64,000 nt of DNA from Streptomyces halstedii (GTDB taxonomy: Bacteria; Actinomycetota; Actinomycetes; Streptomycetales; Streptomycetaceae), in contig JOAZ01000019.1 in NCBI GenBank assembly GCA_000720535.1, positions 84,058 to 148,057 on the forward strand. Direction: 5' to 3'. Positions 8,750-22,937 of the stretch are shown piece after piece. Numbering within the stretch: the first letter of the stretch is position 1; each line of letters begins with the position of its first letter. A program made the position numbers and the translations under genes. Below the pieces are notes generated by a model, which made no database searches, was not told the DNA's origin, and saw only the letters and a program-made list of their open reading frames with translations.

Positions 8750-8874
8750 AGCACAAACGGGCGGTGAACTCGGTCTTCCGTTCATCCGATAGCCTCAGCC
8801 GACGAGCCGCCGGCCCCCGCCTCGGGGCCGCACAGTCGCGCGCCGTTCCCGTCACCGCCAAGGAGTGAGTTCGT

Positions 8875-10713
8875 CTGTCGACCGCCATCCTCACCGGTGC
8901 ACCGGTACCCGGATCGTCGCTCGCGGACGATCTGCGGTCCCTCGGCTTCGACGTGACCGCAGCCGCCGACGCCACCCAGGCCGCCGAGCTGCTCGCCACC
9001 GTCCCCACCGACCAGCGCGTCGCCCTGGTGGATCCCCGCTTCATCGGCCACCTCCACGCCCTCAGGCTCGGACTGACCGACCCCCGCTTCGACGCCGCCG
9101 CCGTCCCCGGCGCCCTCACCGCACAGCCCGCGGCCCGCGGCGCGCTGCTCCGCGCCCTGCGCCGGACCGTGGCCGCCGTCGGCGCCGGCAGCCCCGTGGC
9201 GCCCCCCGGAGCCGGAGAAGTGGCCGCCACCGAGGACCGCACGGTCCCCGGCCGGCTGGCCACGGCCCTGGACGCCGAGGGCGTCCGCGTACAGCGTCCC
9301 GAGCTCGGATCGCTCACCGCCGCGGTGCCCGCCGGCCCCGAGGAGCGGGTCGCCGCACGGACCTCCGTCGCCGCCGTCGACGACGAGGCGGTCCGGCTGC
9401 GCAGCGCGGTCAAGGCCCACGACGGCTTCTTCACCACCTTCTTCATCAGCCCCTACTCCCGCTACATCGCGCGCTGGTGCGCCCGCCGGGGCCTCACCCC
9501 CAACCAGGTCACCACCGCCTCGCTGATCACCGCCCTGATCGCGGCGGGCAGCGCGGCGACCGGCACCCGCGGCGGTTACGTCGCGGCCGGGGTGCTGCTG
9601 CTCCTGTCGTTCGTCCTGGACTGCACCGACGGGCAGCTCGCCCGCTACTCGCTCCAGTACTCGACGATGGGCGCCTGGCTGGACGCCACCTTCGACCGGG
9701 CCAAGGAGTACGCCTACTACGCGGGCCTCGCCCTCGGCGCCGCGCGCGGCGGCGACGACGTATGGGTCCTCGCGCTGGGGGCGATGGTCCTCCAGGCCTG
9801 CCGCCACGTCGTGGACTTCTCCTTCAACGAGGCCAACCACGACGCGGTCTCCAACACCAGCCCCACCGCCGCCCTCTCCGACCGGCTCGACAGCGTCGGC
9901 TGGACCGTCTGGGCGCGCCGGATGATAGTCCTGCCCATCGGTGAACGCTGGGCCATGATCGCCGTGCTGACCGCGCTCACCACGCCCCGGATCGTCTTCT
10001 ACGCCCTGCTGGTGGGCTGCGCGCTGGCCGCCTGCTACACCACGGCGGGCCGGCTGCTCCGCTCGCTGACCCGCAAGGCCCGGCGTACCGACCGCGCCAT
10101 GCGGGCCCTGGCCGACCTCGCCGACTCCGGACCCCTCGCCCAGGCGGTCGCCGCGGTGCTCAGGCGCCCCGGCGGCGGCTTCACCGCCCCGCTGCTGGCT
10201 CTCCTCGCCGCGGTGCTGATGGTCGCGGCGGCCCTCTTCGCGCCCTTCGGCGGATGGCTCACCGTCGGCGCCGCCGTGCTGTACGCCGTCCTCGGCGGCC
10301 TCGCGGTCTCCCGTCCGCTGGGCGGCGCGCTCGACTGGCTCGTACCGCCCGCCTTCCGGGCAGCGGAGTACTGCGTGATCCTGGTGCTCGCCGCCCGCAG
10401 CGACAGCCCGCACGCGGTTCCGGCGGCGTTCGGGCTGGTCTCGGCCGTCGCCTACCATCACTACGACACGGTCTACCGCATCCGAGGCGGTACCGGTGCG
10501 CCGCCGCGGTGGCTGGTGCGCGCCGTCGGCGGTCACGAGGGCCGGACCCTCGTCGTGGCGCTGCTCGCCGCCCTGCTCACCACCGGCTCAGATTTCACCA
10601 CGGCGCTCACCGTGCTCGCGGTCGCCGTGGCTCTCGTGGTGCTCGTGGAGTCCATCCGCTTCTGGGTGTCCTCCTCGGCCCCCGCCGTACACGACGAAGG
10701 AGAACTCGCATGA
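8875..10713 (+). CDS. CDP-alcohol phosphatidyltransferase with N-terminal extension, CTG start
   Basis: The 612-residue protein has a central CDP-alcohol phosphotransferase domain with the full motif DCTDGQLARYSLQ..GAWLDATFD, starting at residue 249 and containing all four Asp of the DxxDGxxAR...GxxxDxxxD signature. The first ~180 residues look like a degenerate nucleotidyltransferase-type fold without the LAAGxG signature; after the catalytic domain come several further membrane helices to residue ~600. Family members transfer a phospho-alcohol from a CDP-alcohol to an acceptor hydroxyl at the membrane. The only good start is CTG at 8875: AAGGAG lies 9 nt upstream, a TGA closes the frame just before it, and the N-terminus STAILTGAPVPG resembles a nucleotide-binding strand. 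First gene of a seven-gene operon; its stop overlaps the next ATG. Confidence 0.85.
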   Translation: MSTAILTGAPVPGSSLADDLRSLGFDVTAAADATQAAELLATVPTDQRVALVDPRFIGHLHALRLGLTDPRFDAAAVPGALTAQPAARGALLRALRRTVAAVGAGSPVAPPGAGEVAATEDRTVPGRLATALDAEGVRVQRPELGSLTAAVPAGPEERVAARTSVAAVDDEAVRLRSAVKAHDGFFTTFFISPYSRYIARWCARRGLTPNQVTTASLITALIAAGSAATGTRGGYVAAGVLLLLSFVLDCTDGQLARYSLQYSTMGAWLDATFDRAKEYAYYAGLALGAARGGDDVWVLALGAMVLQACRHVVDFSFNEANHDAVSNTSPTAALSDRLDSVGWTVWARRMIVLPIGERWAMIAVLTALTTPRIVFYALLVGCALAACYTTAGRLLRSLTRKARRTDRAMRALADLADSGPLAQAVAAVLRRPGGGFTAPLLALLAAVLMVAAALFAPFGGWLTVGAAVLYAVLGGLAVSRPLGGALDWLVPPAFRAAEYCVILVLAARSDSPHAVPAAFGLVSAVAYHHYDTVYRIRGGTGAPPRWLVRAVGGHEGRTLVVALLAALLTTGSDFTTALTVLAVAVALVVLVESIRFWVSSSAPAVHDEGELA

Positions 10714-11447
10714 TCGGCCTCGTACTGGCAGCAGGTGCCGGACGCCGTCTGCGTCCCTATACGGACACACTGCCCAAGGCCCTGGTGCCCGTGGACGGGG
10801 AGAAGACGGTCCTGGACCTGACGCTGGCGAACTTCGCCGAGGTCGGTCTCACCGAGGTCGCGGTCGTCGTCGGCTACCGAAAGGAGGCGGTCTACGCCCG
10901 CAAGGCCGAGTTCGAGGCCACGTACGGCGTGAAGCTGACGCTCATCGACAACGACAAGGCCGAGGAGTGGAACAACGCCTACTCCCTGTGGTGCGCCCGT
11001 GACGTCCTCAAGCAGGGCGTCATCCTCGCCAACGGCGACACCGTGCACCCGGTCTCCGTCGAGCGGACCCTCCTGGGCGCGCGCGGCGAGGGCCGGAAGA
11101 TCATCCTCGCCCTGGACACCGTGAAGAACCTCGCCGACGAGGAGATGAAGGTCGTCACCGAGGACGGCCGGGGCGTGCGGCGCATCACCAAGCTGATGGA
11201 CCCCGCCACCGCGACCGGCGAGTACATCGGCGTGACGCTGATAGAGCCGGAGGCGGCCGAGGAGCTCGCCGACGCGCTGAAGACCACCTTCGAGCGGGAC
11301 CCCGACCTGTACTACGAGGACGGCTACCAGGAGCTCGTCGACCGCGGCTTCACCGTGGACGTCGCGCCCATCGGCGAGGTCACCTGGGTCGAGATCGACA
11401 ACCACGACGACCTGGCCCGCGGCAGGGAGATCGCGTGCCGGTACTGA
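10710..11447 (+). CDS. nucleotidyltransferase, polyol/choline-phosphate cytidylyltransferase-like
   Basis: The 245-residue protein is a single sugar-nucleotidyltransferase-fold enzyme. The nucleotide-binding VLAAGAGRRLRPYTDTLPKA motif is at residues 4-23, and the NDKAEEWNNAYSLWCARD segment resembles LicC-type phosphocholine and inositol-1-phosphate cytidylyltransferases, where NNxYSL recurs. The metal-binding Asp lies in ILANGDTV and the second in EIDNHDDL. It most likely activates a phosphorylated alcohol with CTP, making the CDP-alcohol used by the two phosphotransferases encoded on either side. The substrate is not shown by the sequence; glycerol-1-phosphate from the next gene is my favoured candidate. 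The ATG overlaps the preceding TGA (ATGA) with GAAGGAG upstream. Confidence 0.85.
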   Translation: MIGLVLAAGAGRRLRPYTDTLPKALVPVDGEKTVLDLTLANFAEVGLTEVAVVVGYRKEAVYARKAEFEATYGVKLTLIDNDKAEEWNNAYSLWCARDVLKQGVILANGDTVHPVSVERTLLGARGEGRKIILALDTVKNLADEEMKVVTEDGRGVRRITKLMDPATATGEYIGVTLIEPEAAEELADALKTTFERDPDLYYEDGYQELVDRGFTVDVAPIGEVTWVEIDNHDDLARGREIACRY

Positions 11448-12496
11448 CCCGCCTCATCCCCTCGCCGGTCGTCGTGGACATCCGGCCCGGCGCCCTGGAC
11501 GATCTGGCCGGCCTCCTGGCCGACCAGCGGATCTCCGCCTCCGGAAAGCTCGCCGTCGCGATCAGCGAGGGGTCGGGACGCGTGCTGCGCGAACGGCTCG
11601 CCCCGGCGCTGGCGGGCGCCGACTGGTACCCGGTCGGCAACGGCACGATAGACGCCGCGGTGCGGCTCGCCGACGGCATCAAGGGCAACCGGTACGACGC
11701 CGTCGTCGGCCTCGGCGGCGGCAAGATCATCGACGTGGCGAAGTACGCCGCGGCGCGCGTGGGCCTGCCCATGGTCGCCGTCGCGACGAACCTCTCCCAC
11801 GACGGCCTCTGCTCCCCGGTCGCGACCCTGGACAACGACAACGGACGCGGCTCCTACGGCGTCCCCACCCCGATCGCCGTGGTCATCGACCTCGACGTGA
11901 TCCGGGAGGCCCCCGCCCGCTACGTGCGCTCCGGCATCGGCGACGCGGTGTCCAACATCTCCTGCGTCGCCGACTGGGAACTCGCCCACGAGGTGCGCGG
12001 CGAGGACATCGACGGGCTCGCGGCCGCCATGGCCCGGCAGGCCGGCGAGGCCGTGCTGCGCCATCCCGGAGGGGTGGGTGACGACGCCTTCCTCAAGGTG
12101 CTGGCCGAGGGACTGGTCCTGACCGGCATCTCGATGTCGATCGCCGGAGACTCCCGTCCCGCCTCCGGCGGCTGCCACGAGATCAACCACGCCTTCGACC
12201 TGCTGTACCCGAAGCGGGCCGCCAGCCACGGCGAACAGGTCAGCCTCGGCGCCTGCTTCGCCATGCACCTGCGGGGTGCCCGCGAGGAGTCGCGGCACAT
12301 GGCGTCCGTCCTGCGCGGGCACGGGCTGCCCGTCCTGGCCGAAGAGATCGGCTTCAGCGCCGACGAGTTCGTCCGGGCCGTGGAGTACGCCCCGCAGACG
12401 CGCCCGGGACGTTTCACGATCCTGGAACACCTCAACCTGTCCACCGACCAGATCAGGGACGCGTACGCCGACTATGCACAAGCCATCCATAGCTGA
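11435..12496 (+). CDS. sn-glycerol-1-phosphate dehydrogenase-like enzyme (AraM/EgsA family)
   Basis: The 353-residue protein belongs to the iron-containing alcohol dehydrogenase superfamily and most resembles the glycerol-1-phosphate dehydrogenase branch. The dinucleotide-binding GLGGGKIIDVAKYAA is near residue 92, the conserved TNLSHDGLCSPVA follows, and the metal ligands are expected at the Asp in SGIGDAVSN and the His in GGCHEINHAFD and ASHGEQVSLG. Such enzymes reduce dihydroxyacetone phosphate to sn-glycerol-1-phosphate, the enantiomer used in archaeal lipids and a few bacterial products. Here it lies between a cytidylyltransferase and a CDP-alcohol phosphotransferase, which fits supplying a polyol phosphate. 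The GTG start overlaps the previous gene by 13 bp; a related dehydrogenase with another ketose-phosphate substrate is the alternative. Confidence 0.82.
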   Translation: MPVLTRLIPSPVVVDIRPGALDDLAGLLADQRISASGKLAVAISEGSGRVLRERLAPALAGADWYPVGNGTIDAAVRLADGIKGNRYDAVVGLGGGKIIDVAKYAAARVGLPMVAVATNLSHDGLCSPVATLDNDNGRGSYGVPTPIAVVIDLDVIREAPARYVRSGIGDAVSNISCVADWELAHEVRGEDIDGLAAAMARQAGEAVLRHPGGVGDDAFLKVLAEGLVLTGISMSIAGDSRPASGGCHEINHAFDLLYPKRAASHGEQVSLGACFAMHLRGAREESRHMASVLRGHGLPVLAEEIGFSADEFVRAVEYAPQTRPGRFTILEHLNLSTDQIRDAYADYAQAIHS

Positions 12497-13253
12497 ACTC
12501 CGGCCGGTCGTGCACCCGGCGGGCGTGAAGGACCGGCGCAGCGGGGAGCACTGGGCGGGCCGTCTCTACATGCGCGAGATCTCGCTGCGCATCGACCGGC
12601 ACCTGGTGAACACCAGGATCACGCCCAACCAGCTGACCTATGTGATGACCGTCGCGGGTGTGCTCGCCGCGCCCGCGCTGCTGGTCCCCGGGATCTGGGG
12701 GGCCCTGCTCGGCGTGCTCATGGTCCAGCTCTACCTGCTGCTCGACTGCGTCGACGGCGAGGTGGCCCGCTGGAAGAAGCAGTTCTCCCTGGGCGGGGTC
12801 TACCTGGACCGGGTCGGCGCCTACCTGTGCGACGCGGCCGTGCTGGTCGGCCTCGGGCTGCGCGCCGCCGACCTGTGGGGCAGCGGCCGCGTCGACTGGC
12901 TGTGGGCGTTCCTGGGCACGCTCGCCGCGCTCGGCGCGATCCTGATCAAGGCCGAGACCGACCTGGTCGGCGTCGCGCGCCACCAGGGCGGGCTGCCGCC
13001 GGTCAAGGAGGCCGCCTCCGAGCCCCGCTCCTCCGGCATGGCGTTCGCCCGCCGGGCCGCCGGGGCGCTCAAGTTCCACCGGCTGATCCTCGGCGTCGAG
13101 GCCTCGCTGGTCGTCCTGGCCGCCGCCGTCGTGGACGTGGTCAGGGACGACCTCTTCTTCACCCGTCTCGCGGTCGCGGTGCTGGCAGGGATCGCCCTTC
13201 TCCAGACCGTCCTGCACCTCGTCTCGATCCTGGCGTCCAGCAGGCTGAAGTGA
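12474..13253 (+). CDS. second CDP-alcohol phosphatidyltransferase family protein, variant active site
   Basis: The 259-residue membrane protein has the CDP-alcohol phosphotransferase core with about six helices. The signature begins DCVDGEVARWKKQFSLGGVY at residue 91 and continues LDRVGAYLCD. The first three Asp are present but the fourth, normally four residues after LD, is Ala; a Cys-Asp pair lies four residues further. In characterised family members the fourth Asp is the proposed catalytic base, so this copy may use altered chemistry or act on an unusual acceptor, or the later Asp may substitute. It is translationally coupled to the dehydrogenase gene (23-bp overlap) and followed by the glycosyltransferase. 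The ATG at 12474 gives a family-like cytosolic N-terminus. Confidence 0.8.
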   Translation: MHKPSIAELRPVVHPAGVKDRRSGEHWAGRLYMREISLRIDRHLVNTRITPNQLTYVMTVAGVLAAPALLVPGIWGALLGVLMVQLYLLLDCVDGEVARWKKQFSLGGVYLDRVGAYLCDAAVLVGLGLRAADLWGSGRVDWLWAFLGTLAALGAILIKAETDLVGVARHQGGLPPVKEAASEPRSSGMAFARRAAGALKFHRLILGVEASLVVLAAAVVDVVRDDLFFTRLAVAVLAGIALLQTVLHLVSILASSRLK

Positions 13254-14134
13254 GCTCCTCCATGAAACTCGGCGCGGTCATCATCACCATGGGCAACCGC
13301 CCCGAGGAACTGCGCGCCCTCCTCGATTCGGTCGCCCGGCAGGACGGCGACCGGATCGAGGTGGTCGTCGTCGGCAACGGCGCCCCGGTCCCCGGCGTCC
13401 CCGAGGGCGTACGGACGGTGGAGCTGCCCGAGAACCTGGGCATCCCGGGCGGCCGCAACGTCGGTATCGAGGCCTTCGGCCCGTCCGGCTCGGACGTGGA
13501 CGGGCTGCTCTTCCTCGACGACGACGGGCTCCTGCCGAACACCGACACCGCCGAGCTGTGCCGGCAGGCGTTCGGCGCGGACCCGGAGCTCGGCATCATC
13601 ACCTTCCGCATCGCCGACCCGGACACCGGGGTCACCCAGCGCCGGCACGTGCCGCGGCTGCGGGCCTCCGACCCGATGCGCTCGTCGAGGGTGACGACCT
13701 TCCTCGGCGGGGCCAACGCGGTCCGTACCCAGGTGCTCGCCGAGGTCGGGGGGCTCCCCGGTGACTTCTTCTACGCGCACGAGGAGACCGACCTCGCCTG
13801 GCGGGCCCTCGACGCCGGCTGGATGATCGACTACCGCGCGGACATGGTCCTCAACCACCCCACCACCGCGCCCTCCCGGCACGCGGTCTACCACCGCATG
13901 GTGGCCCGCAACCGGGTCTGGCTCGCCCGCCGGAACCTGCCCGCGCCGCTGGTGCCCCTCTACGTCGGGGTCTGGCTGCTGCTCACGCTGGTGCGCAGGC
14001 CCTCGGCGCCGGCTCTGAAGGCGTGGTTCGGGGGCTTCCGGGAGGGCTGGACCAAGCCCTGCGGGCCGCGGCGTCCCATGAGGTGGCGTACGGTGTGGCG
14101 GCTGACCAGACTGGGCCGACCACCCGTGATCTGA
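13250..14134 (+). CDS. family 2 glycosyltransferase
   Basis: The roughly 294-residue enzyme is an inverting GT2 (GT-A fold) glycosyltransferase. It begins LGAVIITMGNRPEELRALLD, has the nucleotide-binding ENLGIPGGRNVGIEAF, the metal-binding LLFLDDDG motif, an acceptor-site region FFYAHEETDLAWRALDAGW with the catalytic ETD/ED-type acid, and a C-terminal amphipathic or membrane-associated segment VPLYVGVWLLLTLVRR. The architecture resembles rhamnosyl- and galactosyltransferases of surface polymers. GTG at 13250 overlaps the preceding stop (GTGA); the ATG at 13262 is an alternative. It probably decorates or initiates the polymer made by the flanking genes; galE next to the operon makes UDP-galactose a reasonable donor, by inference. 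Confidence 0.87.
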   Translation: MSSSMKLGAVIITMGNRPEELRALLDSVARQDGDRIEVVVVGNGAPVPGVPEGVRTVELPENLGIPGGRNVGIEAFGPSGSDVDGLLFLDDDGLLPNTDTAELCRQAFGADPELGIITFRIADPDTGVTQRRHVPRLRASDPMRSSRVTTFLGGANAVRTQVLAEVGGLPGDFFYAHEETDLAWRALDAGWMIDYRADMVLNHPTTAPSRHAVYHRMVARNRVWLARRNLPAPLVPLYVGVWLLLTLVRRPSAPALKAWFGGFREGWTKPCGPRRPMRWRTVWRLTRLGRPPVI

Positions 14135-14241
14135 GAGGCTTTCCTCTGAGAACATGAGCCGTAGACATATGTACGGGGACCCCTGTCCGCCCTGGCCGCG
14201 CCCGCTCGCGCCGCGCACTGTGAAGACGAGAGTTCTGACTT

Positions 14242-15171
14242 GTGAGTGACACGACCCAAGACGGCGGGCTCGCCCTGAGCGCCCCACCGTCCGCCGACGA
14301 CGGGCTGAGCGCGTCCCAGCTGGCCGCCAAGTACGGCCTGGCCGTGAGCGGTGCCAGGCCCGGACTCGTCGCGTACGTCCGGCAGCTCTGGGGCCGCCGG
14401 CACTTCATCCTGGCCTTCTCCCGGGCCAAGCTGACGGCGCAGTACAGCCAGGCGAAGCTCGGCCAGGTGTGGCAGGTGGTCACACCGCTGCTGAACGCCC
14501 TGGTCTACTTCCTGATCTTCGGCCTGATCCTGGGCACCCGGAGGGGGATGACCCAGGAGGTCTTCATCCCCTTCCTGGTGACCGGCGTCTTCGTCTTCAC
14601 CTTCACCCAGAGCTCGGTCATGGCGGGGGTGAAGTCGATCTCCGGCAACATCGGCCTGGTCCGCGCCCTGCACTTCCCGCGCGCCTCCCTGCCGATCTCG
14701 TTCTCGCTCCAGCAGCTCCAGCAGCTGATGTTCTCGATGATCGTGCTGCTGGCGGTCGCGGTCGGCTTCGGCAGCTATCCGGCGCTGTCCTGGCTGCTGG
14801 TCCTGCCCGCGCTGGCCATGCAGTTCCTGTTCAACAGCGGACTCGCGCTGATCATGGCGCGGCTGGGCAGCAAGACCCCGGACCTCGCCCAGCTGATGCC
14901 GTTCATCATGCGGACCTGGATGTACGCCTCGGGCGTCATGTACTCCATCCCCGTGATGCTGGCGGACAAGCCGCGGTGGATCGCGGACGTGCTCCAGTAC
15001 AACCCGGCGGCCATCTACATGGACCTGGTCCGCTTCGCCCTGATCGACGGCTACGGCTCGGAGAACCTGCCGGACCACGTGTGGGCCGTCGCGCTCGCCT
15101 GGGCGGTCGTGGTGGGCGTCGTGGGCTTCGTGTACTTCTGGAAGGCAGAGGAACGGTACGGCCGTGGCTGA
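14242..15171 (+). CDS. polysaccharide/teichoic acid ABC exporter, permease
   Basis: The 309-residue permease belongs to the ABC-2 exporter group of TagG/Wzm/RfbD proteins. After a cytosolic N-terminus the conserved amphipathic segment FSRAKLTAQYSQAKLGQVWQ leads into the first of six membrane helices (LLNALVYFLIFGLILG), and the family-typical PFIMRTWMYASGVMYSIPVM and LQYNPAAIYMDLVR lie in the second half. It should form a channel across the cytoplasmic membrane with the ATPase encoded next, exporting a lipid-linked glycan. The GTG start follows a 107-bp gap after the glycosyltransferase gene, the only sizeable gap in the operon, so an internal promoter is possible. The ATPase start lies within its last codons. 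Confidence 0.92.
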   Translation: MSDTTQDGGLALSAPPSADDGLSASQLAAKYGLAVSGARPGLVAYVRQLWGRRHFILAFSRAKLTAQYSQAKLGQVWQVVTPLLNALVYFLIFGLILGTRRGMTQEVFIPFLVTGVFVFTFTQSSVMAGVKSISGNIGLVRALHFPRASLPISFSLQQLQQLMFSMIVLLAVAVGFGSYPALSWLLVLPALAMQFLFNSGLALIMARLGSKTPDLAQLMPFIMRTWMYASGVMYSIPVMLADKPRWIADVLQYNPAAIYMDLVRFALIDGYGSENLPDHVWAVALAWAVVVGVVGFVYFWKAEERYGRG

Positions 15172-15949
15172 GGAATCGTCCAAGGGACACATCCCGACCG
15201 TGATCGCCGACGACGTGCACATCGTGTACCGGGTCAACGGCACGGGCGGCGGCAAGGGCAGCGCCACCGCGGCGCTGAGCCGGATCCTGCGCCGGGGCAA
15301 GGGGGAGCCGCGCGGCGTACGCAAGGTGCACGCGGTGCGCGGGGTCTCCTTCACCGCCTACCGGGGCCAGGCGATCGGCCTCATCGGCACCAACGGCTCC
15401 GGCAAGTCCACCCTGCTGCGGGCCATCGCCGGACTCCTGCCGCCCGAGAGCGGCAAGGTGTACACCGACGGCCAGCCGTCCCTGCTGGGCGTCAACGCCG
15501 CCCTGATGAGTGACCTGACCGGTGAGCGCAACGTCGTGCTGGGCGGTCTCGCGATGGGCATGAGCCGCGAGGAGATCCGCTCCCGCTACCAGAAGATCGT
15601 CGACTTCTCCGGGATCAACGAGAAGGGCGACTTCATCACGCTGCCCATGCGGACGTACTCCTCCGGCATGGCGGCCCGGCTGCGCTTCTCCATCGCGGCG
15701 GCCAAGAACCACGACGTCCTCATGATCGACGAGGCGCTGGCCACCGGCGACCGCAAGTTCCGGGTGCGCTCCGAGGAGCGGATCCGCGAGCTGCGCAAGG
15801 AGGCGGGCACGGTCTTCCTCGTCAGCCACAACAACAAGACGATCCGGGACACCTGCGACCGGGTGCTGTGGCTGGAGAAGGGCGAGCTCCTGATGGACGG
15901 CTCCACCGACGAGGTGCTCAAGGCCTACGAGCGGGAGACCGGCAAGTAG
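15164..15949 (+). CDS. polysaccharide/teichoic acid ABC exporter, ATP-binding subunit
   Basis: The 261-residue ATPase is of the TagH/Wzt type. Walker A is GTNGSGKST near residue 77, the signature is YSSGMAARLRFSIA, Walker B is DVLMIDEALATGD and the switch His is in VFLVSHNNKTI. The N-terminal IVYRVNG and the VHAVRGVSF strands are as in TagH. There is no C-terminal carbohydrate-binding domain like that of E. coli O9a Wzt, so export probably does not require a terminal-modification signal read by this subunit. Its GTG overlaps the permease gene by 8 bp, which supports a fixed complex. It is the last gene of the operon and is followed by a strong hairpin. Confidence 0.93.
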   Translation: MAEESSKGHIPTVIADDVHIVYRVNGTGGGKGSATAALSRILRRGKGEPRGVRKVHAVRGVSFTAYRGQAIGLIGTNGSGKSTLLRAIAGLLPPESGKVYTDGQPSLLGVNAALMSDLTGERNVVLGGLAMGMSREEIRSRYQKIVDFSGINEKGDFITLPMRTYSSGMAARLRFSIAAAKNHDVLMIDEALATGDRKFRVRSEERIRELRKEAGTVFLVSHNNKTIRDTCDRVLWLEKGELLMDGSTDEVLKAYERETGK

Positions 15950-15960
15950 TGTCCACGTGT

Positions 15961-16000
15961 CCGTGGCCCCCGCCGGAGAACCCCCCGGCGGGGGCCACGG
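15961..16000 (+). terminator. strong operon-end terminator hairpin
   Basis: A perfect 16-bp stem (15961-15976 with 15985-16000) around an 8-nt loop begins 11 bp after the ABC ATPase stop codon. It separates the envelope-glycan operon from the hopanoid cluster. Confidence 0.85.
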
Positions 16001-16298
16001 CGTGTGGCCCCGGATACGGCGGATGCGGCAGGGGCCCCTGGGACATCTCCTTCCGGCGGATGACGCCAATCGCGGTCGTTACGGGGAAGGTTGGCGGGGC
16101 GGGCGGCGTTGTACCGGGACGCGCTGCACCCCGGCGCCCCGGTGCGAGTTGTACAACGTAAGCTGTACCGGTGCTGATTCGCGGCCGTTTCGTGGTGATA
16201 CGCCCCGGTGTATCGATCGTCTCCGTCCGTCGCACAGGAGAGTGTGAGCGGCGTGTCCGAAAAGGGATGTTTTGGGTCGGCAGTGTAGAACGGGAGAT
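16001..16298 (+). promoter_or_regulatory. hopanoid cluster upstream region with repeated TTGTAC elements
   Basis: This roughly 300-bp region carries no gene. TTGTAC occurs at 16109-16114 and again inside the palindrome GTTGTACAAC at 16148-16157, with a further GTAC shortly after. A GATAC...GTATC inverted pair lies near 16197-16214. The region should hold the promoter of hpnC; no -35/-10 pair can be fixed by eye. Confidence 0.4.
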
Positions 16299-16370
16299 AT
16301 GACGGCAATGATGGGAAATCTCCAGCTCCGACGTGGTTTCGCCGTCCCCGCGTCGGGCGGTACGCAGTGA
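16299..16370 (+). CDS. candidate 23-residue leader peptide coupled to hpnC
   Basis: An ATG-started frame preceded by GGGAG encodes MTAMMGNLQLRRGFAVPASG followed by GTQ, and its TGA (16368-16370) overlaps the GTG of hpnC as GTGA. Two further ATGs at 16308 and 16311 are better spaced from the GGGAG. hpnC itself has only a weak ribosome-binding site, so translation of this short frame could deliver ribosomes to hpnC by termination-reinitiation. No known family was recognised. It may simply be a chance frame, but the exact stop/start overlap matches the coupling seen between the other genes of this operon. Confidence 0.4.
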   Translation: MTAMMGNLQLRRGFAVPASGGTQ

Positions 16371-17287
16371 CCCGTACCCCGAAGGCGTACACCGACGCCG
16401 CCGCGACCGGCACCCTCGACAAGGCCGCCGACGAGAACTTCCCCGTCGCCCCCTTCTTCCTGCCGCAGGCCTGGCGCGACGACCTCATGGCCGTGTACGG
16501 CTTCGCCCGCCTGGTCGACGACATCGGCGACGGCGACCTCGCGCCCGGCGGCGCCGACGCCCGCCACCTCGGCGTGGACGCCGGAGGCGACGAGGACCGG
16601 CTCGCCCTGCTCGACGCGTTCGAGGCCGACCTGCACCGCGTCTTCGCGACCACCGGCGACGGCCCGCGCCACCCCCTGCTGCGCGCACTGCGCCCCACCG
16701 TGCGGCGCTGCGCGCTCACCCCCGACCCCTTCCTCGGGCTCGTCGAGGCCAACCGGCAGGACCAGAAGGTCCGCCGCTACGCCACCTACGAGGAGCTCCT
16801 GGCCTACTGCGAGCTGTCCGCCAACCCCGTCGGCCGCCTCGTCCTCCAGATCACCGGCACCGCCAGCCCCGAGCGCGTCCGCCGCTCCGACGCCGTGTGC
16901 ACCGCCCTGCAGATCGTCGAGCACCTCCAGGACGTCGCCGAGGACCTCGCCCGGGACCGGATCTACCTGCCCGCCGAGGACATGGCCCGCTTCCACGTCG
17001 GCGAGGACGACCTCGCCCTGCCCAGCGCGGGAGCCTCGCTGCGCGCTCTGATCGCCTTCGAGGCGCAGCGCGCCCACGAGCTGCTGGACGAGGGCACCGC
17101 GCTGGTGGGCAGCGTCCACGGCAGACTCAGACTGCTGCTCGCGGGATTCGTCGGCGGGGGCCGGGCCGCCCTCGGCGCCGTCTCGGCCGCCGGTTTCGAC
17201 GTACTGCCCGGACCGCCCAAGCCCACCGCGCCCCGACTGCTGCGCGACGTGGGAGCAGTCCTGCGAAGAGCGCACAGAGAGAGGTGA
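16367..17287 (+). CDS. hpnC: hydroxysqualene synthase HpnC
   Basis: This 306-residue protein is a squalene/phytoene synthase-fold enzyme. In the HpnCDE route, HpnC converts presqualene diphosphate to hydroxysqualene. The two Asp-rich motifs expected for Mg-diphosphate binding are visible as LVDDIGDGD near residue 48 and LQDVAEDLARDRIYLPAED near residue 190. FPVAPFFLPQAWRDDLMAVYGFAR is the typical entry segment of HpnC. It is the first confirmed gene of the hopanoid operon; its TGA overlaps the hpnD GTG. Assignment to C rather than D rests on the N-terminal ENFPVAPFFLP motif and on gene order. Confidence 0.93.
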   Translation: MTRTPKAYTDAAATGTLDKAADENFPVAPFFLPQAWRDDLMAVYGFARLVDDIGDGDLAPGGADARHLGVDAGGDEDRLALLDAFEADLHRVFATTGDGPRHPLLRALRPTVRRCALTPDPFLGLVEANRQDQKVRRYATYEELLAYCELSANPVGRLVLQITGTASPERVRRSDAVCTALQIVEHLQDVAEDLARDRIYLPAEDMARFHVGEDDLALPSAGASLRALIAFEAQRAHELLDEGTALVGSVHGRLRLLLAGFVGGGRAALGAVSAAGFDVLPGPPKPTAPRLLRDVGAVLRRAHRER

Positions 17288-18240
17288 GCCGGACCGTGGA
17301 GGGACAGACGACGTACATGTCGGCACCGGTACAGGCCGCGTACAGCTACTGCGAGGCGGTCACCGGACAGCAGGCCCGCAACTTCGCGTACGGCATCAGG
17401 CTCCTGCCGTACGAGAAGCGGCAGGCCATGTCGGCGTTGTACGCCTTCTCCCGTCGGGTCGACGACATCGGCGACGGGGTACTGGAGCCAGAGACCAAGC
17501 GGTCCCGGCTGGAGGGCACCCGCGAACTGCTCGACCGGATCCGGCACGGCGCCGTCGACGAGGACGACACCGACCCGGTGGCCGTCGCGCTCGCCGACGC
17601 GGCCCGCCGGTTCGCGCTGCCGCTCGGCGGTCTCGACGAGCTCATCGACGGCGTCCTGATGGACGTGCGCGGCGAGCACTACGAGACCTGGGACGACCTG
17701 AAGACCTACTGCCGGTGCGTGGCGGGCGCCATCGGGCGGCTGAGCCTCGGCGTCTTCGGGACGGCGCCGGGCGTACCGGGCGCCGACCGCGCCGCCGAGT
17801 ACGCCGACACCCTCGGCCTCGCCCTCCAGCTCACCAACATCCTGCGCGACGTCAGGGAGGACGCGGGCAACGGCCGCACCTACCTGCCCGCCGACGACCT
17901 CGCCAAGTTCGGCTGCTCCGCGGGCTTCCACCGGGCCACCCCGCCCCCCGGCTCCGACTTCGCCGGGCTGGTGCACTTCGAGGTCCGGCGGGCCCGCGCC
18001 CTGTTCGCCGAGGGCTACCGGCTGCTGCCCATGCTCGACCGGCGCAGCGGAGCCTGCGTGGCCGCGATGGCCGGCATCTACCGCCGCCTCCTCGACCGCA
18101 TCGAGCGCGATCCCGAGGCCGTCCTGCGCGGACGGGTCTCGCTGCCCGGCCACGAGAAGGCCTACGTGGCGGTCCGCGGGCTCTCGGGTCTCGACGCGCG
18201 TCACATCTCGCGCCGTACGACCAGGGGGCGGAGCCGATGA
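17284..18240 (+). CDS. hpnD: presqualene diphosphate synthase HpnD
   Basis: The roughly 318-residue enzyme condenses two farnesyl diphosphates to presqualene diphosphate, the first committed step to squalene here. It shows NFAYGIRLLPYEKRQAMSALYAFSR, the first Asp motif RRVDDIGDG and the second LRDVREDAGNGRTYLP, with MDVRGEHYETWDDLKTYC between them. The GTG at 17284 overlaps the hpnC stop (GTGA); an ATG at 17317 is an alternative start that would remove eleven poorly conserved residues. The TGA overlaps the ATG of a 34-codon ORF. Membership of a contiguous hpnCDE-shc set makes the hopanoid role secure. Confidence 0.94.
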   Translation: MSRTVEGQTTYMSAPVQAAYSYCEAVTGQQARNFAYGIRLLPYEKRQAMSALYAFSRRVDDIGDGVLEPETKRSRLEGTRELLDRIRHGAVDEDDTDPVAVALADAARRFALPLGGLDELIDGVLMDVRGEHYETWDDLKTYCRCVAGAIGRLSLGVFGTAPGVPGADRAAEYADTLGLALQLTNILRDVREDAGNGRTYLPADDLAKFGCSAGFHRATPPPGSDFAGLVHFEVRRARALFAEGYRLLPMLDRRSGACVAAMAGIYRRLLDRIERDPEAVLRGRVSLPGHEKAYVAVRGLSGLDARHISRRTTRGRSR

Positions 18241-18341
18241 CGGGGCGTATCCTCCTGCCGGACGGCGGGGCGGAGCGGGCAACCCCGCGCCCGGCCCGTG
18301 CGTCCCTGACCGCGACGACACTGCGAAAGGGAGACGGATGA
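18237..18341 (+). CDS. 34-residue ORF exactly linking hpnD and hpnE
   Basis: This frame starts MTGRILLPDGG and ends RASLTATTLRKGDG. Its ATG overlaps the hpnD stop (ATGA) and its TGA overlaps the hpnE ATG (ATGA), so it fills the gap with no free base. It is rich in Thr, Ala and Arg and has no membrane segment. The C-terminal RASLTATTLRKG is reminiscent of very small conserved Streptomyces proteins (possibly the DUF6380 group), but I cannot confirm a family. Whether its product matters or it serves only to couple translation is unknown. The AAAGGGAG sequence before the hpnE ATG lies within its last codons. Confidence 0.55.
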   Translation: MTGRILLPDGGAERATPRPARASLTATTLRKGDG

Positions 18342-19726
18342 ACGGCCGGACCCCGCACCCCTCCAGGGCGGTGGTCGTCGGCGGCGGACTCGCCGGAGTC
18401 ACCGGCGCCCTCCGCCTCGCCGACGCCGGTGTCCGGGTGACCCTGCTCGAAGGACGCCCCCGGCTGGGCGGGCTGGCCTTCTCCTTCCGCCGCGGCGACC
18501 TCTCCGTGGACAACGGGCAGCACGTCTACCTGCGTTGCTGCACCGCCTACCGGTGGTTCCTGGACCGGATCGAGGGCACCGCCCTCGCCCCGTTGCAGAG
18601 CCGTCTCGACGTGCCCGTCCTGGACGTCGGGCGTTCCGCCGGACCCCGGCTCGGCCGGCTGCGCCGCGGCGGGCTGCCCGTACCGCTGCACCTGGCCGGC
18701 GGGCTCGCCGCCTACCCGCACCTCTCGCTCGCCGAGAAGGCGGGCGTCGCCCGCGCCGCCCTGGCCCTGGGCCGCCTGGACCCCGCCGACCCGGCCCTCG
18801 ACGGCATCGACTTCGCGACCTGGCTGCGCCGCCACGGCCAGTCCGACCGCACCCTCGCGGCCCTCTGGGACCTCGTCGGCGTCGCCACGCTCAACGCCAG
18901 GGCACCGGACGCCTCCATGGCGCTCGCCGCCATGGTCTTCAAGACGGGACTGCTCTCCGACCCGGGCGCCGCCGACATCGGCTGGGCCGCCGTGCCGCTC
19001 GGCGACCTCCACGACACGCTCGCCCGCAAGGCCCTCGAATCCGCCGGAGTGGACGTCCGGGTGCGCAGCCGGGCCACCGGTCTGACCCGCACCGAGGACG
19101 GCCGCTGGGCGGTCGAGACCGACGGCGAGCGCTTCGAGGCGGACAACGTCGTCCTCGCCGTCCCGCAGGGCCAGGCCCACGCGCTGCTGCCCGAGGGGGC
19201 CCTGGAGAACCCGGGCCGGCTGCTGGAGCTGACCGACTCGCCCATCCTGAACGTCCACGTGATCTACGACCGCAAGGTGCTGCGCAGGCCGTTCTTCGCC
19301 GCGCTCGGCTCGCCCGTCCAGTGGGTCTTCGACCGCACCGCCTCCTCCGGGCTCCAGGGCGCGGGCCAGTATCTCGCGGTCTCCCAGTCCGCGGCGCAGG
19401 ACGAGATCGACCTGCCGGTCGCCGAACTGCGCGCCCGCTATCTGCCCGAACTGGAGCGGCTCCTTCCGGCCGCCCGGGGTGCGGGGATCCGGGACTTCTT
19501 CGTCACCCGCGAGCGCACGGCGACCTTCGCGCCCGCTCCCGGGGTGGGACGCCTGAGGCCGGGCGCGCACACCCGGGCCCCCGGGCTCCACCTCGCCGGC
19601 GCGTGGACCGCCACCGGCTGGCCCGCCACGATGGAGGGTGCCGTCCGCAGCGGGTTCACCGCCGCGGACGCCGCGCTCCAGGTGCTCGGCAGGCCCCACC
19701 GACATCCGCTGCAGGAGGCGGCATGA
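18338..19726 (+). CDS. hpnE: hydroxysqualene dehydroxylase HpnE (FAD-dependent)
   Basis: The 462-residue flavoprotein reduces hydroxysqualene to squalene in the HpnCDE pathway. The Rossmann FAD motif is AVVVGGGLAGVTGALRLADAG near residue 11, the following acidic residue lies in VTLLEGRPRLGG, and the C-terminal FAD-contact segment is PGLHLAGAWTATGWPATMEG, as in the phytoene-desaturase-like amine oxidase superfamily. VDNGQHVYLRCCTAYRWFL is typical of the HpnE branch. It is coupled by ATGA overlaps to the preceding small ORF and to the prenyl synthase gene. No signal peptide is expected; it should act at the membrane surface. Confidence 0.93.
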   Translation: MNGRTPHPSRAVVVGGGLAGVTGALRLADAGVRVTLLEGRPRLGGLAFSFRRGDLSVDNGQHVYLRCCTAYRWFLDRIEGTALAPLQSRLDVPVLDVGRSAGPRLGRLRRGGLPVPLHLAGGLAAYPHLSLAEKAGVARAALALGRLDPADPALDGIDFATWLRRHGQSDRTLAALWDLVGVATLNARAPDASMALAAMVFKTGLLSDPGAADIGWAAVPLGDLHDTLARKALESAGVDVRVRSRATGLTRTEDGRWAVETDGERFEADNVVLAVPQGQAHALLPEGALENPGRLLELTDSPILNVHVIYDRKVLRRPFFAALGSPVQWVFDRTASSGLQGAGQYLAVSQSAAQDEIDLPVAELRARYLPELERLLPAARGAGIRDFFVTRERTATFAPAPGVGRLRPGAHTRAPGLHLAGAWTATGWPATMEGAVRSGFTAADAALQVLGRPHRHPLQEAA

Positions 19727-20826
19727 GCAGTACCACCGGAACAAGAGGAGAGTCTGTGACCCCGGCGAACCCGGCTTTCGACACCGTGGCGGACACCACG
19801 GACGTCACCGCGCTTCTGGAGCGCGGAAGGGCCCTGTCAGCGCCGGTACTGCGAGCCGCGGTGGACCGGCTGGCGCCGCCCATGGACACCGTCGCCGCCT
19901 ACCACTTCGGCTGGATCGACGCACAGGGCCGCCCCGCCGACGGCGACGGCGGCAAGGCCGTACGGCCGGCGCTCGCACTGCTGTCCGCCGAGGCGGCCGG
20001 CGCTCAGGCGGAGGCCGGGATCCCCGGCGCGGTCGCCGTCGAACTCGTGCACAACTTCTCGCTGCTGCACGACGACCTGATGGACGGCGACGAACAGCGC
20101 CGCCACCGCGACACCGTATGGAAGGTGCACGGGCCGGCCCAGGCGATCCTGGTCGGCGACGCCCTGTTCGCCCTGGCCAACGAGGTCCTGCTGGAGCTCG
20201 GCACCGCCGAGGCCGGCCGGGCGGCCCGCCGGCTGACCACCGCCACCCGCAAGCTCATCGACGGGCAGGCCCAGGACATCTCCTACGAGCACCGCGAGCG
20301 GGTCACCGTCGAGGAGTGCCTGGAGATGGAGGGCAACAAGACGGGCGCCCTGCTCGCCTGCGCGGTCTCCATCGGCGCCGTGCTCGGCGGCGCGAACGAC
20401 CGCACCGCCGACATCCTGGAGGCGTACGGCTACCACCTCGGCCTCGCCTTCCAGGCCGTCGACGACCTGCTGGGCATCTGGGGCGACCCGGAGTCCACGG
20501 GCAAGCAGACCTGGAGCGATCTGCGCCAGCGCAAGAAGTCCCTGCCGGTCGTCGCCGCGCTGGCCGCGGGCGGACCGGCCTCCGAGCGTCTGGGCGAACT
20601 GCTCGCCGCCGACGCCAAGAGCAGTGACTTCGACAGCTTCTCCGAAGAGGAGTTCGCCGCCCGAGCGGCACTCATCGAGGAGGCGGGCGGCCGTGAGTGG
20701 ACCGCCCAGGAAGCGCGTCGTCAGCACGCGGTGGCCATCGAGGCCCTGCACGGTGTCGACATGCCGGAAAGGGTGCGGACGCAGCTCACTGCGCTCGCCG
20801 ACTTCGTCGTCGTACGAAAGAGATGA
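19723..20826 (+). CDS. polyprenyl diphosphate synthase
   Basis: The 367-residue trans-prenyl transferase makes the allylic diphosphate for the operon, most likely farnesyl diphosphate. The first Asp-rich motif is LLHDDLMDGDEQRRHRDTVW and the second is FQAVDDLLGIWGDPESTGK; GGKAVRPALALLSAEA supplies the IPP-binding residues. The residues just before the first motif (VHNFSLLHDD) are small to medium, which does not fix chain length; GGPP synthase activity is the alternative. GCAGGAGG precedes the ATG at 19723, which overlaps the hpnE stop; a GTG at 19756, also with a good ribosome-binding site, could be a second start. It is followed by a hairpin in the 101-bp gap before shc. Confidence 0.9.
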   Translation: MSSTTGTRGESVTPANPAFDTVADTTDVTALLERGRALSAPVLRAAVDRLAPPMDTVAAYHFGWIDAQGRPADGDGGKAVRPALALLSAEAAGAQAEAGIPGAVAVELVHNFSLLHDDLMDGDEQRRHRDTVWKVHGPAQAILVGDALFALANEVLLELGTAEAGRAARRLTTATRKLIDGQAQDISYEHRERVTVEECLEMEGNKTGALLACAVSIGAVLGGANDRTADILEAYGYHLGLAFQAVDDLLGIWGDPESTGKQTWSDLRQRKKSLPVVAALAAGGPASERLGELLAADAKSSDFDSFSEEEFAARAALIEEAGGREWTAQEARRQHAVAIEALHGVDMPERVRTQLTALADFVVVRKR

Positions 20827-20851
20827 TGACCATTCAGATATGACGCGTCGC

Positions 20852-20880
20852 CGGCGGGCGCCCACCGAGGGCGCCCGCCG
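20852..20880 (+). promoter_or_regulatory. intra-operon hairpin before shc
   Basis: A perfect 12-bp stem (20852-20863 with 20869-20880) with a 5-nt loop lies between the prenyl synthase stop and the shc start. It may attenuate transcription, stabilise an mRNA end or act as a partial terminator within the hopanoid operon. Confidence 0.55.
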
Positions 20881-20927
20881 ACGGAGACCCCAGCACAGCA
20901 GAGGACCAACTGCACGAAGGGGAAGCC

Positions 20928-22937
20928 ATGACAGCGACGACCGACGGAAGCACCGGGGCCGCGAACCTTCGCGCGGTCACGTTCGGCGATCCGATCGAAC
21001 CGACTACCGACACGGACGATGTCCTCGCCGCCGCGCGAAGGGCCGCGGGGCGCTCGGTGGAGCACCTCCTCGGCAGGCAGGACGAACAAGGCTGGTGGAA
21101 GGGAGACCTCGCCACCAACGTCACCATGGACGCCGAGGACCTGCTGCTCCGTCAGTTCCTGGGGATCCAGGACCCGGAGACCGTCCAGGCGGCGGCCCGC
21201 TTCATCCGGGGCGAGCAACTCGGCGACGGCACCTGGAACACCTTCCACGGCGGACCGCCCGACATCTCCGCCACCATCGAGGCGTACGTCGCACTCCGGC
21301 TGGCCGGAGACCTGCCGGACGACCCGCACATGCTCAGGGCGGCCGGCTGGGTCAGGGAGCAGGGCGGCATCGCGGCCTCACGGGTCTTCACCCGCATCTG
21401 GCTGGCTCTCTTCGGCTGGTGGAAGTGGGAGGACCTGCCCGAACTGCCGCCCGAGCTGATGTTCTTCCCCTCGTGGGTCCCGCTCAACATCTACGACTTC
21501 GGCTGCTGGGCCCGCCAGACCATCGTGCCGCTCACCATCGTCTCCGCGAAGCGGCCCGTGCGCCCCGCTCCGTTCGCGCTCGACGAACTGCACACCGACC
21601 CGGAGCACCCCGCCCCGCCCCGGCCGCTCGCCCCCGCGGCGAGCTGGGACGGCGTCTTCCAGCGGCTCGACAAGGCGCTGCACGCGTACCACAAGGTCGC
21701 CCCGCGCCGGCTGCGCCGCATCGCCATGAACGCGGCGGCCCGCTGGATCATCGAGCGGCAGGAGAACGACGGCTGCTGGGGCGGCATCCAGCCGCCCGCG
21801 GTGTACTCGGTCATCGCACTCCATCTGCTCGGCTACGACCTCGAACACCCGGTGATGCGGGCCGGTATCGCCTCGCTCGACCGCTTCACCGTCTGGCGCG
21901 AGGACGGCTCCCGCATGGTCGAAGCCTGCCAGTCCCCGGTCTGGGACACCTGCCTGGCCACCATCGCGCTCGCCGACGCCGGTGTGCCCCCGGACCACCC
22001 GGCCCTGGTGAGGGCGGCGGACTGGATGCTCGGCGAGGAGATCGTACGGCCCGGGGACTGGTCCGTACGCCGCCCTCAACTGGCGCCGGGGGGTTGGGCG
22101 TTCGAGTTCCACAACGACAACTATCCGGACATCGACGACACCGCCGAGGTCGTGCTCGCCCTGCGCCGGGTCCGCCACCCGGACCAGCCGCTGGTGGACG
22201 CCGCCATCGAGCGCGGGGTCCGCTGGAACCTCGGCATGCAGTCCCGTGACGGGGCGTGGGGCGCCTTCGACGCGGACAACACGAGCCCCTTCCCCAACCG
22301 CCTGCCGTTCTGCGACTTCGGCGAGGTCATCGACCCGCCGTCCGCCGACGTCACCGGGCACGTGGTGGAGATGCTCGCCGTCGAGGGCCTGGCCACCGAC
22401 CCGCGTACCCGCCGGGGCATCCAGTGGCTCCTCGACGAACAGGAGGCGAGCGGAGCCTGGTTCGGCCGATGGGGCGTCAACTACATCTACGGGACCGGCT
22501 CCGTGGTACCCGCGCTGATCGCCGCCGGACTTCCCGCGTCCCACTCCTCCGTCCGACGGGCCGTCAGCTGGCTGGAGTCCGTCCAGAACGACGACGGTGG
22601 CTGGGGCGAGGACCTGCGGTCCTACCGGGAGGAGAAGTGGATCGGCCACGGCGCCTCGACCGCCTCCCAGACCGCCTGGGCGCTGCTCGCGCTGCTGGCC
22701 GCCGGGGAGCGGGAGAGCAGGGTGGTGGAGCGGGGCGTCACCTGGCTGGCCGAGACCCAGCAGGCCGACGGGTCCTGGGACGAGCCGTACTTCACCGGGA
22801 CCGGCTTCCCCTGGGACTTCTCCATCAACTACCACCTCTACCGGCAGGTGTTCCCGCTCACCGCGCTGGGACGCTATGTGCACGGCGAGCCCTTCGCCAC
22901 CGCCGGTACGGGCACGGCACCCGGCAGGGAGGCCTGA
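20928..22937 (+). CDS. shc: squalene-hopene cyclase
   Basis: The 669-residue enzyme cyclises squalene to hopene/hopanol as a monotopic membrane protein. The catalytic DXDD acid motif is DIDDTAEV at residues 401-404. Several QW repeats are visible, including QDEQGWWKGDL, QENDGCWGG, QSRDGAWGAF, QEASGAWFGRWG, QNDDGGWGED and QADGSWDEPYFTGTGFPWDF. Length and repeat number are typical of bacterial class-II triterpene cyclases. A clear GAAGGGGAAG ribosome-binding site precedes the ATG. It is the key enzyme of the cluster and is followed 4 bp later by hpnG. Confidence 0.96.
   Translation: MTATTDGSTGAANLRAVTFGDPIEPTTDTDDVLAAARRAAGRSVEHLLGRQDEQGWWKGDLATNVTMDAEDLLLRQFLGIQDPETVQAAARFIRGEQLGDGTWNTFHGGPPDISATIEAYVALRLAGDLPDDPHMLRAAGWVREQGGIAASRVFTRIWLALFGWWKWEDLPELPPELMFFPSWVPLNIYDFGCWARQTIVPLTIVSAKRPVRPAPFALDELHTDPEHPAPPRPLAPAASWDGVFQRLDKALHAYHKVAPRRLRRIAMNAAARWIIERQENDGCWGGIQPPAVYSVIALHLLGYDLEHPVMRAGIASLDRFTVWREDGSRMVEACQSPVWDTCLATIALADAGVPPDHPALVRAADWMLGEEIVRPGDWSVRRPQLAPGGWAFEFHNDNYPDIDDTAEVVLALRRVRHPDQPLVDAAIERGVRWNLGMQSRDGAWGAFDADNTSPFPNRLPFCDFGEVIDPPSADVTGHVVEMLAVEGLATDPRTRRGIQWLLDEQEASGAWFGRWGVNYIYGTGSVVPALIAAGLPASHSSVRRAVSWLESVQNDDGGWGEDLRSYREEKWIGHGASTASQTAWALLALLAAGERESRVVERGVTWLAETQQADGSWDEPYFTGTGFPWDFSINYHLYRQVFPLTALGRYVHGEPFATAGTGTAPGREA

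Follow-up and report, generated by a model that had tools for sequence, protein, structure and literature searches.

A conserved seven-gene operon of Streptomyces that may make, use and export an sn-glycerol-1-phosphate-bearing envelope molecule

Introduction

Type I wall teichoic acid systems comprise TarD, the TagB/F polymerases, the TagGH exporter and proteins of the LytR-CpsA-Psr (LCP) family, which act as wall ligases. In Bacillus subtilis, lipoteichoic acid contains sn-1 and wall teichoic acid sn-3 glycerol phosphate (PMC7086022). Archaeal and bacterial membranes are held to be set apart by the chirality of their glycerol phosphate, and the sn-glycerol-1-phosphate (G1P) dehydrogenases of bacteria have been considered as candidate lipid genes of archaeal type, either inherited from the last universal common ancestor (LUCA) or transferred (PMC6431249, PMC5059525). 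Lysates of Archaeoglobus fulgidus contain a G1P-preferring cytidylyltransferase activity, the gene for which was called as yet unidentified in the 2021 report, and CDP-1-glycerol was tied there to archaeal glycerophosphoinositol (PMC8262930). That compound has been called likely absent from bacteria, and in the open-licence PMC literature we found no paper on a glycerol-1-phosphate cytidylyltransferase or on CDP-1-glycerol, with the spelling CDP-1-Gro occurring in one. Here we describe an operon of seven genes, A to G, at 8875-15949 on the + strand of a 64,000-nucleotide stretch of Streptomyces halstedii contig JOAZ01000019.1 (the window, i.e., the whole stretch of DNA that was analyzed). On balance, we think that this operon makes, uses and exports a cell-envelope molecule bearing sn-glycerol-1-phosphate. 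This reading, which includes the later steps of the pathway, is drawn from sequence comparison, and its basis is the anatomy and conservation of the operon, the pairing of genes B and C, conserved residues and the near-absence of GGGPS (PcrB family).

The operon resembles the type I wall teichoic acid system in its proposed CDP-activated glycerol phosphate, its glycosyltransferase and its TagGH-like exporter, and TagF-like and LCP genes lie near the A-G module in some genomes. It is unlike that system in having an activator of the NTP_transferase family beside a G1P dehydrogenase, with the opposite enantiomer predicted, and a CDP-alcohol transferase in place of TagB/F. The glycerophosphoinositol route of Archaeoglobus, with AF2299/IPCT-DIPPS, offers a cytidylyltransferase activity that prefers G1P (PMC8262930) and a CDP-alcohol transferase whose structure was determined with CDP-glycerol, but its product is glycerophosphoinositol, whereas a glycosyltransferase, an exporter and DUF5941 are added here. 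AraM of B. subtilis, a bacterial G1P dehydrogenase, shares its superfamily and the proposed reaction with gene C; however, AraM feeds an ether lipid (PMC13400652, PMC5059525), while in Streptomyces GGGPS was not found and a cytidylyltransferase gene is coupled to the dehydrogenase gene. Lipoteichoic acid also contains sn-glycerol-1-phosphate (PMC7086022). Its glycerol phosphate, however, is drawn from phosphatidylglycerol outside the cell and involves no CDP precursor. The mycobacterial galactan exporter is an example of the Wzm/GT2/Wzt sets, which combine a permease, a family 2 glycosyltransferase (GT2) and an ATPase, as the operon does, but we know of no polyol-phosphate genes in the mycobacterial set.

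Results and Discussion

Open reading frame calling and Pfam searches of the window gave seven coupled genes, in agreement with a preliminary description made from the sequence. Genes A/B, B/C, C/D and F/G overlap, D and E are 8 bp apart, and E and F are separated by 107 bp; the operon is real. Conservation of the genes together, on which the preliminary description had staked its reading, was also found, since all seven occur in order at 77 of 80 related loci, far more often than by chance. These Streptomyces loci were the best 80 of at least 489 relatives found with gene C and are hence close relatives; the exceptions lacked a match to G (L054 and L089) or to E (L081). Parts of the A-G set recur, rearranged, in other actinobacterial families. 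A sample of 296 genomes of the phylum contained DUF5941 (gene A) in 13 cases; at E <= 1e-40, B was matched in these 13 and in G045 as well (14 genomes), and C in 32. Co-occurrence of A and B gave a Fisher p of 9e-22 over the 296 genomes, or 2e-8 with the genus itself removed, kinship being ignored in both values.

Gene C (11435..12496, +; Fe-ADH_2 in Pfam) is very probably a G1P dehydrogenase, judging from model scores, solved relatives and conserved residues. It scored 238 bits on the G1P dehydrogenase model NF002022, as against 89 bits on the glycerol dehydrogenase model, and its closest solved chains were 3ce9, which was deposited as a glycerol dehydrogenase, and archaeal G1P dehydrogenases. 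A putative metal-ligand Asp is conserved except in one of the 80 Streptomyces copies and one of the 8 distant ones, both of which have Glu. Both His residues and the R, P, second S and G of SRPxSG are kept in all 88 copies, and the first S is Thr in 7. The metal-ligand and motif roles are those that we presume from an alignment with 4rgq and from the general features of the family.

The 33 C loci in the 32 genomes of the phylum-wide sample pointed to a partner for this enzyme. At 29 of them a B or B-like cytidylyltransferase gene adjoins C, the matched pieces overlapping or lying up to ~310 bp apart; these loci come from nine genomes of the same genus, G204, G086, G183, G045 and 16 others. The distant B-like genes, which are 26-39% identical to B of the window, were found partly with relatives from the same set. 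In family f9 (L191, L195, L197, L199, L201, L205-L209 and others) the B-C pair often lies near a gene of the type I phosphodiesterase family (in the L191 copy, PF01663), which may put the same precursor pair to a further use.

Gene B (10710..11447, +; NTP_transferase in Pfam) is the proposed CTP:sn-glycerol-1-phosphate cytidylyltransferase. It matches PF00483/PF12804 and not PF01467, its nucleotide-binding signature LAAGxGxRLRPxTxxxPKxL is intact, and its best solved match is LicC (1JYK), which places it in the LicC-like NTP_transferase family. TarD, which is of the CTP_transf_like family (HxGH and RTxGISTT motifs), was considered as an identity for B and rejected as the wrong family. With its intact nucleotide signature, the adjoining B appears to be the obvious consumer of G1P, and we consider it likely, from the conserved pairing with C, that G1P is its substrate. 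A second full-length copy of B exists in the Streptomyces genome G298, where the two copies are on different contigs and are 82% and 85% identical to B of the window.

GGGPS, the enzyme that leads G1P into ether lipids, gave no match in 38 Streptomyces genomes, our own included (B was found in all 38, and C was searched for in 9). Partial matches of 47-65 residues, one of them just over the cut-off, occurred in 4 of 23 other C-bearing genomes, and 7 of 14 control genomes were positive, 5 of them over the cut-off. Since GGGPS is so scarce, the idea that G1P passes to a CDP derivative is strengthened.

Gene A (8875..10713, +; CTG start) combines a class I CDP-alcohol phosphotransferase domain (CDP-OH_P_transf in Pfam) with a C-terminal membrane domain, DUF5941. 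The signature DxxDGxxAR(x)8GxxxDxxxD is kept in 77 of 80 copies, and the other three copies are truncated (109-279 aa). The N-terminal ~180 residues, which precede the transferase domain, had no Pfam match; a by-eye comparison with distant relatives leads us to guess at a degenerate cytidylyltransferase-like domain. DUF5941, of which we found no mention in the open-licence PMC literature, is fused to A in Streptomyces and G204 and forms a separate adjoining frame in G086, G183, G108 and Nonomuraea, suggesting that the two parts of A work together. The closest solved relative of both A and D is AF2299, and both are also near the inositol phosphate transferases. In the AF2299 structure, CDP-glycerol occupies a small hydrophilic pocket (PMC4634129, PMC8633023), and eukaryotic transferases with lipid acceptors typically carry three or four extra C-terminal membrane helices (PMC4634129). 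By analogy, DUF5941 could be such an extra membrane-helix module for a lipid acceptor. Whether A uses CDP-1-glycerol on a membrane acceptor we hold to be evenly balanced.

The remaining genes encode a glycosyltransferase and an exporter, both of the kinds named in the preliminary description. Gene E (13262..14134, +) matches Glycos_transf_2 in Pfam and is a family 2 glycosyltransferase. Gene F (14242..15171, +; ABC2_membrane) encodes an ABC-2 permease of Wzm/TagG type and gene G (15164..15949, +; ABC_tran) an ABC ATPase of TagH/Wzt type. The best solved matches of G were TagH/TarH (5e-52); on the curated TagH equivalog model it scored 183 bits against a cut-off of 320, and F and G both match galactan exporter models below their cut-offs. 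Membership of F/G in the TagGH exporter group follows from their closest solved relatives together with paralogy. In our own genome, five TagF-like genes at L127-L128 (contig C15) stand beside a second Wzm/Wzt pair, 63% identical to F and 75% to G. By homology, then, F/G quite probably exports the product.

More distant arrangements of the module are varied. In G045, F-G-B-C-D-E are clustered without A. Two LCP genes lie upstream of A-B-C-D-E in G183; Nonomuraea gerenzanensis has A-B-C-D-E and two LCP-family genes, plus a TagF-family match that is weak (28 bits). G108 groups B and A with a bacterial sugar transferase, G, F and a GT2-TagF-like fusion (83 bits), and its C-D lies ~15 kb off. In G204, B-C stands with another CDP-alcohol transferase, and A, located elsewhere, adjoins a Wzm/Wzt pair and a GT2-TagF fusion (383 bits). 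The B-C pair of G121 adjoins a TagF-like gene (303 bits). A 608-aa gene of L096 and a 712-aa gene of L129, which looked TagB/F-like by eye, had no Pfam match at 1e-6 and were not used. In G086, genes A to E are followed by one for a group 1 glycosyltransferase, two for sulfotransferases and then F and G; since the two sulfotransferase genes (L094 4767-7031) lie within the cluster, a sulfated product is suggested in that genome.

Taken together, these genes would form a pathway of five steps. Gene C, from its family and residues, would reduce dihydroxyacetone phosphate to G1P, and B, from its conserved pairing with C, would join G1P and CTP to give CDP-sn-1-glycerol. A would then move phosphoglycerol from CDP-sn-1-glycerol to a membrane-bound acceptor, with DUF5941 possibly holding the lipid and D, in which three of four signature Asp residues are kept, serving as a partner or modified subunit. 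E would add a sugar, for which the divergent galE may supply UDP-galactose, and F/G would export the product much as teichoic acid is exported by TagGH. In genomes where a TagF-like polymerase gene or LCP genes are neighbors, CDP-1-glycerol may in addition be a precursor of a wall polymer.

A wider role of this kind depends on the sources of CDP-glycerol in these bacteria. Our own genome has six PF04464 (TagF-like) matches outside the operon, the sixth with an IspD-SDR fusion gene nearby, which we take to be probably a CDP-ribitol-forming enzyme. It also has a divergent TarD-like gene at L119 (contig C1), which was not counted as a canonical TarD, with 66 bits against a cut-off of 165 and FPYTVHTSSTQ where TagD has RTEGISTT. 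This gene adjoins another CDP-alcohol transferase and a probable glycosyltransferase, a neighborhood that is possibly a separate CDP-alcohol system. Among 31 Streptomyces genomes, B was present in 31 (in G314 only as fragments at contig ends) and TagF-like genes in 29, and TarD-like matches of at least 58 bits occurred in 9. None of the 31 exceeded the cut-off, whereas 2 of 14 control genomes did. TagF-like genes with no TarD-like match of at least 58 bits were found in 21 of the 31, 9 of which gave weaker partial TIGR01518 matches (31-36 bits) that were not counted as TarD-like. Sixteen stretches from 12 of these 21 genomes, covering part of their TagF-like genes, had no B, IspD-SDR or TarD-like gene nearby (E <= 1e-8), and 4 of the 16 carry F/G paralogues. 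No B, IspD-SDR or TarD-like match was found in the L127-L128 stretch of our own genome either. Since none of these sources lies near the TagF-like genes in the stretches examined, B could supply the TagF-like enzymes. Two TagF-like capsule polymerases were reported to take both CDP-glycerol enantiomers in vitro (PMC5974469).

From these data we tentatively put forward a broader proposal, which we regard as possible and rather less likely than the operon's own role: Actinobacteria make CDP-sn-1-glycerol by way of C and B, this is the sole CDP-glycerol source in most Streptomyces, their TagF-like wall teichoic acids mirror those of Bacillus, and the G1P dehydrogenase is a wall-polymer enzyme. 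The proposal predicts that Streptomyces teichoic acids differ from the usual ones in chirality. If correct, the reading of the operon would explain why an "archaeal" lipid gene occurs in these bacteria without the rest of the archaeal lipid pathway, and inferences about LUCA or gene transfer would change if the actinobacterial enzyme feeds a CDP-activated envelope molecule. It would also supply a candidate gene family for the G1P-preferring cytidylyltransferase reported from Archaeoglobus lysates (PMC8262930), a source of CDP-glycerol for Streptomyces that have no TarD-like gene, and a way to produce enantiopure CDP-1-glycerol with enzymes.

Several observations weigh against the proposed role of the operon. 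Gene C is below the cut-off of the archaeal (EgsA/AraM) model NF002022 (238 vs 413 bits), and gene B reaches none of the named NCBIfam cut-offs in the 25 families listed. At 4 of the 33 C loci no B adjoins: B is 15 kb off in G108, one gene lies between in G003, C is at a contig edge in G058, and no B was found for the second C copy of G114. No annotated cytidylyltransferase lies within 7 kb of the C homologues (30-36% identity) of one Nitratidesulfovibrio and one Cytobacillus plasmid; not all C homologues, then, show the pairing. No TagB/TagF polymerase was found by Pfam among the seven operon genes, and F/G were not found in the fetched stretches of G183 (20 kb) or Nonomuraea (19 kb), both of which have A-E. 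Because our own genome has a divergent TarD-like gene and an IspD-SDR fusion, B need not feed the TagF-like enzymes. AF2299 is said not to process lipids (PMC4634129) and probably to act in phosphatidylinositol-phosphate synthesis (PMC8633023), statements that leave its natural reaction unsettled. Finally, gene D (12474..13253, +; CDP-OH_P_transf in Pfam) has lost the fourth signature Asp, which is the likely catalytic base (PMC4634129), in all 80 copies (Ala in 63, His in 17). The position is His in four distant relatives and Ala in Nonomuraea, and Asp was seen in no copy read; D is for this reason not filed as a canonical class I CDP-alcohol phosphotransferase and belongs to a subfamily of CDP-alcohol transferases that have His or Ala where the likely base would be. 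Two active phosphotransferases, as the preliminary description had it, can therefore not be assumed. A/D may be one active enzyme and a partner. The identification of a G1P dehydrogenase-like enzyme and of a LicC-like cytidylyltransferase, by comparison, was borne out, the latter with coupling to C across the sampled phylum, as was that of the exporter, given the TagH/TarH relatives of G and the close F/G paralogues beside TagF-like genes.

One alternative accepts that C and B make CDP-1-glycerol but holds that it ends up in a short phosphodiester or a lipid headgroup, comparable to the glycerophosphoinositol of Archaeoglobus, and that F/G exports something else. The nearness of A and D to AF2299 and the inositol phosphate transferases is consistent with this, as are the G1P-preferring activity of A. 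fulgidus and the link of CDP-1-glycerol to glycerophosphoinositol (PMC8262930), the lack of a polymerase in the operon, and the A-E sets of G183 and Nonomuraea, without F/G in the fetched stretch. However, a glycosyltransferase and a TagGH-like exporter share the operon at 77 of 80 loci and the cluster in G045, and LCP and TagF-like genes adjoin the module elsewhere, so that we consider a short headgroup improbable, although the best placed of the alternatives. Nearly as probable is that B activates another phospho-alcohol (choline, aminoethyl-phosphonate, inositol or a longer polyol phosphate), with C performing a related ketose-phosphate reduction or supplying the acceptor. The best solved match of B is the phosphocholine enzyme LicC, and public annotation assigns B to the phosphocholine cytidylyltransferase family. 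On a Sulfitobacter plasmid, a B relative of 33% identity (L230 5986-8801) adjoins a CDP-alcohol transferase and a class V aminotransferase, a context that suggests another alcohol there, perhaps in a phosphonate headgroup system. The pairing of B with C at 29 of 33 C loci, and the CDP-glycerol-type glycerophosphotransferase gene adjoining the pair in G121, argue against another alcohol and for G1P as the substrate of B.

The other alternatives are much less probable. G1P might enter ordinary acyl phospholipids of mixed chirality through PlsY and PlsC, which can reportedly work with either glycerol phosphate (PMC13400652), with B acting separately; but this would leave unexplained why A, B and E-G share a single conserved operon, and we regard it as very unlikely. 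A dehydrogenase serving archaeal-type ether lipids is more doubtful still. The genus Streptomyces was reported to include some species with all three archaeal lipid genes (PMC6431249), and bacterial G1P dehydrogenases, with one Streptomyces sequence aligned, fall within or beside the archaeal ones (PMC5059525). We rejected this explanation on the distribution of GGGPS (0 of 38 Streptomyces, partial matches only in 4 of 23 others) and on the coupling of C to a cytidylyltransferase gene instead; the GGGPS result goes against the Streptomyces enzyme being an ether-lipid enzyme, the possibility raised in PMC6431249. Equally improbable is that the product modifies hopanoids, which is suggested by synteny only: hpnC lies within 2 kb downstream at 73 of the 75 loci with room, but a search of 8 distant module stretches (L094-L097, L126, L130, L190 and L231) for hpnC, hpnD, hpnE and squalene-hopene cyclase found none of them (E <= 1e-5), and a control Streptomyces stretch gave hpnC, hpnD and hpnE in the same search.

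In the window, hopanoid genes from hpnC onwards, including squalene-hopene cyclase, occupy 16367-22937. Between them and gene G, a G+C-rich hairpin (15955..16005, +; 16 bp plus 5 bp) closes the operon. The preliminary description had called it a 16-bp terminator; the hairpin itself is well supported (-44.2 kcal/mol, z -4.9 vs 200 shuffles), but it has no T-run and for that reason does not appear in the list of a standard terminator scan. On the other side of the operon, galE is divergent and upstream in 62 of 73 loci. A promoter-like pair, TGAA-N17-CCGATA (8765..8791, +), lies upstream of A, and the pair with its 17-nt spacer is kept in 69 of 74 upstream regions, that of the window included. 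We take the pair to resemble WhiG/FliA-type promoters, a resemblance that would link the operon with sporulation. A TTCACnCGAA repeat upstream of A occurs twice in the window and once in two others of the 74 regions and was dropped. We presume SCO6752-6757 to be the locus tags of the operon, which appear in one network paper in the open-licence PMC literature.

The start of gene A is a rare CTG codon at 8875-8877, preceded by an AAGGAG site and an in-frame TGA. Of the 80 copies, 70 could be anchored: 68 start with CTG and 2 with TTG, and 62 have an in-frame stop two codons upstream. In codons 2-20, third positions take most of the substitutions (118/135/277). Since the in-frame TGA is two codons upstream and the annotated start of S. 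fungicidicus gene A is a TTG at the same place, gene A starts at the CTG.

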